DNA of 40,679 bases from Patescibacteria group bacterium (GTDB taxonomy: Bacteria; Patescibacteriota; Patescibacteriia; Patescibacteriales; UBA12465): NCBI GenBank assembly GCA_016938835.1, contig JAFGTW010000053.1, positions 1-40,679 of the forward strand, given 5' to 3'. This document shows, in pieces, positions 15,739 through 16,126 of this stretch. The position numbers and the translations under genes were made by a program. Below the pieces are notes generated by a model. The model was given only the letters and a program-made list of their open reading frames with translations. It did not search any database and was not told the origin of the DNA. How positions within the stretch are numbered: position 1 is the first letter of the stretch; each line of letters begins with the position of its first letter.

Positions 15739-15767
15739 TTGACTTTCATAAAATATTTGATTAAAAT
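15739..15767 (+). promoter_or_regulatory. Promoter of the structured RNA at 15.8-16.1 kb
   Basis: TTGACT (15739-15744), exactly 17 bp, TAAAAT (15762-15767). It points away from ddl into the 370-bp stretch without a convincing gene. Confidence 0.75.
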
Positions 15768-15773
15768 AGTTTT

Positions 15774-16095
15774 GCACTTTAAAACTACAGATTATGAATT
15801 GTTCGTCTTTTCCATCAATTGGAGATAATTATTTCGTGTTTCGTTTGCCATTTGTAGGATACCTTCCGAACATCTATTTTCTGTTACATCACGCAGAAGT
15901 GTGCCGAAAGCAACAACATCGCGCCCCCGCCACAGCTTCTGCTACGTGATAAAGGGGCTTGATTAAAAAGCCTATCAAGCCCCGTTAAACAAAAATTGGC
16001 AAACGGATATTTGTTCAGGTATCAGTACCTTTTAATTATCGTTATTTGATTTTTCAACTAAAAGCGCTTTGTAAATTACAAGGCGCTTTTTTCTT
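15774..16095 (+). ncRNA. Candidate structured non-coding RNA with pseudoknot
   Basis: This interval between ddl and polA has a promoter, a terminator and an unusual density of long complementary segments. Helix 1 (enclosing): 15824-15831 with 16033-16040, 8 bp perfect. Helix A: 15840-15850 with 15997-16007, 11 bp with one G-U. Helix B: 15858-15864 with 16017-16023 (7 bp), continued by 15868-15872 with 16012-16016 (5 bp) after a 3-base bulge. A and B cross, so together they form a pseudoknot. Between them are hairpin D (15888-15899 with 15936-15950, 6+6 bp with a 3-base bulge) and hairpin E (15954-15963 with 15974-15983, 10 bp). It is locally richer in G+C than its surroundings. I looked for the signatures of RNase P RNA, tmRNA, SRP RNA and 6S RNA and found none. 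It could be a trans-acting RNA or a cis leader of polA. Confidence 0.6.
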
Positions 16096-16098
16096 TTT
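16060..16098 (+). terminator. Strong intrinsic terminator of the structured RNA
   Basis: A 14-bp stem (16060-16073 with 16077-16090, one G-U pair, 3-base loop) runs into a T-rich tract to 16098. It closes the transcript 35 bases before polA. Confidence 0.9.
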
Positions 16099-16126
16099 GC
16101 CTATTAATGGTAGCTCGTGCTAAAAT
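16097..16126 (+). promoter_or_regulatory. Promoter for polA, suggesting a leaderless mRNA
   Basis: TTGCCT (16097-16102), 18 bp, TAAAAT (16121-16126) preceded by TGC (extended -10). The expected start, about 7 bases past the -10, falls on or next to the A of the polA ATG at 16133. Confidence 0.6.

Follow-up and report, generated by a model that had tools for sequence, protein, structure and literature searches.

Type I toxins are small hydrophobic transmembrane peptides, usually of fewer than 60 aa. In one type I toxin-antitoxin system, timPR, the timP/RyfA RNA was once annotated as noncoding; it is an mRNA whose ribosome-binding site is sequestered and whose conformational switch involves a pseudoknot (PMC11228461). 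Here we analyzed an interval flanked by ddl, on the minus strand, and polA, on the plus strand, in a Patescibacteria genome of 800 kb (98.9% complete), within a 40,679-nt stretch of DNA (hereafter the window) that forms contig 21 of this genome. By the N-terminus of PolA, its nearest public relatives are both Patescibacteria MAGs, JAQUAK010000001.1 (95% identical) and JAQUWT010000003.1 (83% identical). The interval holds a small RNA gene, not classified before, that contains an open reading frame (ORF); the unit is real, and so is the overall stability of its fold. Our best explanation, favored with moderate confidence, is that this is a small independent gene with a ~315-nt transcript, predicted to be expressed from a single promoter and terminator, and that the transcript is a stand-alone, lineage-restricted, fast-evolving structured RNA whose function would lie mainly in its fold.

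Transcription unit, reading frame and fold

An earlier note on this DNA had proposed a self-contained transcription unit, and both of its boundary signals were verified. A sigma-70 type promoter, TTGACT-17-TAAAAT (15739..15767, plus strand), matches the consensus at 10 of 12 positions, and an intrinsic terminator with a 14-bp stem and a T run, checked in the sequence, follows at 16060..16090 on the same strand. A separate polA promoter, TTGCCT-18-TAAAAT (16097..16126, plus strand), lies outside the unit in a block conserved in four species; it is kept in the window's own genome (G000), in its closest relative (G006), and in two other members of the genus (G004 and G005). This promoter ends 6 nt short of the polA ATG (16133), and because its −10 box sits so close to the start codon, polA is probably leaderless. 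Shine-Dalgarno-like sites are scarce in G006, where they precede 13 of 227 ATG genes.

Comparison of the window unit with 4227 Rfam models gave only matches below the family gathering thresholds, nearly all at the terminator end, so no known family removes its novelty; nine counterpart-bearing loci gave no Rfam match either. The earlier note had also set the unit apart from RNase P RNA and tmRNA, and the genome's copies of both were indeed found elsewhere, above cut-off (tmRNA, RF00023, at G000:C10:24491-24879). DNA searches returned no homolog of the unit in 60 relatives or in phage records, and matches piling on 16031-16055 were rejected as chance, being coding or A+T-rich sequence on inspection. 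At the protein level, no homolog of the ORF was found in 98 relatives or in viral contigs, and none of the Pfam and NCBIfam profiles matched it. A dispersed repeat was rejected as well, because such units are sparse: only a handful occur in 400 kb of G006, and 163 kb of G000 contain a single ORF-bearing one. The same genome contains a second candidate orphan RNA (L200:16566-16850, on G000:C7), a stand-alone unit with a TTGACA promoter, ~250 nt without an ORF, and a strong terminator, for which no match was found in Rfam or among the loci compared.

The embedded ORF, MNCSSFPSIGDNYFVFRLPFVGYLPNIYFLLHHAEVCRKQQHRAPATASAT, spans 51 codons and ends in TGA followed by TAA (15794..15949, plus strand). 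It had been overlooked when the interval was first read as a structured RNA; the strong fold behind that reading holds, but the reading was incomplete, since this frame went unseen and the counterparts repeatedly have open frames too. The chance of an equally long ORF from the first ATG is 0.056-0.065. Codon usage in the ORF is not gene-like, and its codon score is lower than that of any 51-codon stretch drawn from genuine genes of the window.

The transcript is strongly folded, as previously claimed. Against dinucleotide shuffles, its stability reaches z = −7.0 with the terminator and z = −4.1 to −4.4 without it. An 8-bp helix missed in the first reading, CTACAGAT/ATTTGTAG (15785-15792/15850-15857), brackets the start codon, and opening the start site costs 9.6 kcal/mol, more than with most shuffled ORF bodies (P = 0.03). 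The other helices described earlier are all present on the plus strand. An enclosing helix of 8 bp (15824-15831/16033-16040) is weak (−4.4 kcal/mol) and consists of A-T pairs except for two. Helix A (15840-15850/15997-16007) has 11 bp including one G-U and a stability of −15.0 kcal/mol, and helix B, read directly from the sequence, crosses it with 7 + 5 bp (15858-15864/16017-16023 and 15868-15872/16012-16016). Folding gives two internal hairpins, ATCAC-GCAGAAGT.../...GCTTCTGC-TAC-GTGAT (15888..15950), with the ORF stop codon in its 3′ arm, and GGGGCTTGAT/ATCAAGCCCC (15954..15983), a 10-bp stem directly past the stop. The right arm of helix B can instead form a local hairpin, AGGTA-TCAG-TACCT (16017..16030), and this competitor is part of the minimum-energy fold. 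As for the proposed pseudoknot, helices A and B exist as described, but their standing beyond chance in this single sequence is marginal: a long-range stem equal to A occurs in 3% of dinucleotide shuffles, and about 1 shuffle in 20 yields crossing helices that equal A plus the 7-bp portion of B in stability (P ~0.05). Because shuffles match at these rates, one sequence backs an unusual fold well and this particular pseudoknot weakly, and we regard the modeled A/B pseudoknot in the window as plausible.

Counterparts at polA in related genomes

Counterparts were sought in related genomes in the DNA upstream of polA. Units sharing the design of the window unit lie there in G004, G005, and G006 and, in the sister genus g4, in G026, G028, G031, G033, G034, G035, G060, G061, and G062, with two units in tandem in both G028 and G062. 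The shared design comprises a strong promoter, ~20-25 nt, an ATG, and a frame of 41-119 codons, with a recognizable hairpin terminator in most units. In G062 and G034, the units stand 2-3 kb upstream of polA with other DNA between. The G000 unit is not alignable with that of G006 despite 85% identity overall between the two polA proteins, and the G006 unit is not significantly folded (z = −1.4) and has an open start. Within the sister genus, G031/G061 and G026/G062u1 form alignable pairs. Searches with a protein profile and an RNA model placed the sister-genus family at the polA locus only, weak hits aside, and did not match the window unit. A model of the stop-proximal hairpin (R1) matched only G026, G034, G035, and G062, plus two weak hits, with no match in the window's genus. 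We infer from position and architecture that the window unit is orthologous to those of the sister genus.

Several observations were made in passing at these loci and genomes. The tandem units map to L173 (G062:C9, ~8.3-9.2 kb) and L050 (G028); in G062, the similar promoters and leaders and the diverged bodies suggest a duplication followed by rapid divergence. In G032, a tRNA-like gene with unusual inserts (GCCAAGG...TTCGACTCCTTCCCTTGGTACCA) takes the unit's place just upstream of polA (L034, reverse strand). G006 carries a group I intron (Rfam RF00028, 79.9 bits) within a tRNA gene (L077:3130-3378; G006:C1, ~303.1 kb), probably inserted at the anticodon. It also has an intergenic segment of ~300 nt (L068:15958-16262; G006:C1, ~136.0 kb) that is closed by an almost perfect ~29-base inverted repeat, AAATATTTAAAGTATCATCCTC ... 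GAGGGTGATACTTTAAATATTT, and has no Rfam match.

The alignable units allowed constraint on RNA and peptide to be compared. Between G031 and G061, divergence at codon positions 1, 2, and 3 is 0.20, 0.15, and 0.13 in the ORF versus 0.09, 0.03, and 0.40 in polA, and dS is 0.20 versus 1.34. The ORF dN/dS is 0.86 for this pair and 0.59 for G026/G062u1, compared with 0.04 for polA. The G031/G061 ORFs thus diverge about equally at the three positions, without a third-position excess, and combine a high dN/dS with a low dS relative to polA; the aligned sequences point to constraint at the nucleotide level without clear constraint at the protein level. A 10-bp hairpin at the ORF end carries three compensated pairs in five sequences. 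In this alignment 98% of cells are paired, as against 26-52% in slid versions, and the score was reached by 7 of 500 shuffles. Some of the compensatory changes alter amino acids (I→T and I→M in G034). The hairpin loop in turn pairs downstream, as AGAGAAC/GTTCTCT in G031, GGAGAAT/ATTCTCT in G061, and GAGGA/TCCTC in G062u1, and like complementarity can be read in G026, G034, and G062u2. This loop-downstream helix is kept with a compensatory change between G031 and G061, where covariation by itself stays within the shuffle range (122/500) because only two sequences are compared. Stop codons shift relative to the stop-proximal structure (99 versus 119 codons), making the fold the more conserved element. 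When all units were scanned for pseudoknots in general and compared with shuffles, a common pseudoknot outside the stop-proximal motif gained no support.

At the other end of the ORF, the start sites of the units are more sequestered than those of 150 ordinary genes (Mann-Whitney P = 6e-5) and more sequestered than with shuffled bodies (Fisher P = 1e-4). Frames from the first ATG are longer than in shuffles (11 units, Fisher P = 2e-9, a value that may be inflated because units were partly recognized by their ORFs), and non-triplet indels in the counterparts offset each other, keeping the frame. Synonymous choice over all units departs strongly from that of host genes. Selection in the sister-genus units would thus appear to keep nucleotides and helices more than the peptide, the helices so kept being the start-site hairpin and the pseudoknot at the ORF end, while the frame tends to remain open. 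The idea of a pseudoknotted structured RNA, first raised for the window, gains from these units, in which the fold under apparent selection includes a pseudoknot. Their evolution also favors the RNA, rather than the peptide, as the putative active product.

Alternative explanations

The alternative that survives best, although we consider it unlikely, is a conventional gene whose product is a small, rapidly evolving protein, either secreted or in the membrane, with incidental RNA structure. Frames open beyond chance and compensated indels would fit such a gene, as would the hydrophobic or signal-like N-termini of the sister-genus peptides and the other small-protein units present in G006. The nucleotide data run the other way: the codon score of the window ORF lies under all sampled stretches of genuine genes, synonymous use is far from gene-like across units, G031/G061 lack a third-position excess, and helices covary even where this alters amino acids.

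A type I toxin-like locus, in which the folded mRNA of a membrane-active small peptide is silenced through its own structure together with a separate antisense RNA, seems to us rather unlikely too. The translation start is sequestered in mRNA structure, most counterparts have small hydrophobic N-termini (G004, G005, G035, G031, G060, and G033), tandem copies occur in G062 and G028, divergence is fast, and timP/RyfA provides a pseudoknotted precedent (PMC11228461). However, the 51-aa window peptide is weakly hydrophobic (maximum Kyte-Doolittle 1.31, against 1.7-2.8 in most counterparts) and that of G006 is not hydrophobic (0.73), counterparts reach 119 aa, and a near-neutral dN/dS is not suggestive of a conserved toxin. 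Moreover, a search of the units for an overlapping or adjacent antisense antitoxin gene found no convincing or recurrent antisense promoter, and none is consistent in any unit. A classical antisense-controlled locus was rejected on this ground, and we do not claim type I membership because no antisense RNA was found at the locus, a distant antitoxin acting in trans being possible.

It is very improbable that the unit is a decaying or neutral insertion whose promoter, terminator, and stems arose by chance. The window unit has no homologs, the G006 unit is unalignable, and the pseudoknot is marginal, all of which such an origin would explain; yet the overall stability is unusual, the promoter and terminator are intact, units of the same design recur at this locus in two genera, and the alignable ones show RNA-level constraint. 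Least credible of all, and strongly disfavored, is a cis-regulatory leader or attenuator of polA, one of the two roles suggested in the earlier note. The unit does lie directly upstream on the same strand, but a leader or riboswitch-type element shares a transcript with its gene, whereas here the unit ends in a terminator and polA has a conserved leaderless promoter of its own; the units of G062 and G034 stand kilobases away.

A candidate two-state RNA and its known likenesses

Under the preferred explanation, a structured RNA with an embedded ORF, the product would act in trans and not on polA. The 5′ part of the ORF would pair with the region past the stop through helices A and B, which would bind codons ~16-27 to this region, so that translation and A/B pairing would be mutually exclusive. 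With the start codon also held in structure, the full-length RNA is proposed to be poorly translated. An entering ribosome, or a partner RNA or protein, could melt A and B and free their 3′ arms, one of which would refold as the local hairpin at 16017-16030. The RNA would thus switch between two states in step with translation, a design like that of timP/RyfA. Any peptide produced would be small, with weak hydrophobicity.

A more speculative extension, to which we give little credence for now, is that the Patescibacteria polA locus hosts a lineage-specific class of RNAs in which selection maintains an open frame of 50-120 codons and an intact pseudoknotted fold but leaves the peptide nearly free, each RNA working by being translated through, or by toggling with translation, rather than by yielding a protein product. 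The genomes of Candidate Phyla Radiation bacteria are very small, and few RNA genes of their own have, to our knowledge, been described. Recurring beside polA with one design and unrelated sequences, the units offer a tangible new family of RNA genes for testing. They also call for caution with small ORFs in such genomes, for which an open frame alone is no ground for a protein annotation.

Among known systems, tmRNA (RF00023) resembles the unit as a stable RNA that contains both a pseudoknot and a reading frame; the unit has no tRNA-like domain, and the real tmRNA lies elsewhere in the genome. Dual-function sRNAs with an ORF, such as VcdRP (PMC8672173), similarly combine a regulatory-type RNA with an embedded small ORF, but the ORF of the unit is longer and its peptide is not conserved. 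With hok/sok and other type I toxin mRNAs, the unit has in common a long-range fold-back in which the 3′ end pairs with the 5′ part of the ORF and would block translation; it differs in its peptide and in that no antitoxin RNA promoter was found. The nearest functional model is timP/RyfA. No sequence relation to it and no antisense partner of the unit were found, the window peptide is only weakly hydrophobic, and the sister-genus ORFs evolve almost neutrally. Nevertheless, both are stand-alone small transcripts, initially read as noncoding RNA, with a sequestered ribosome-binding region and a small peptide ORF, and the mutually exclusive conformations of timP/RyfA, including a pseudoknot, resemble those predicted for the unit.
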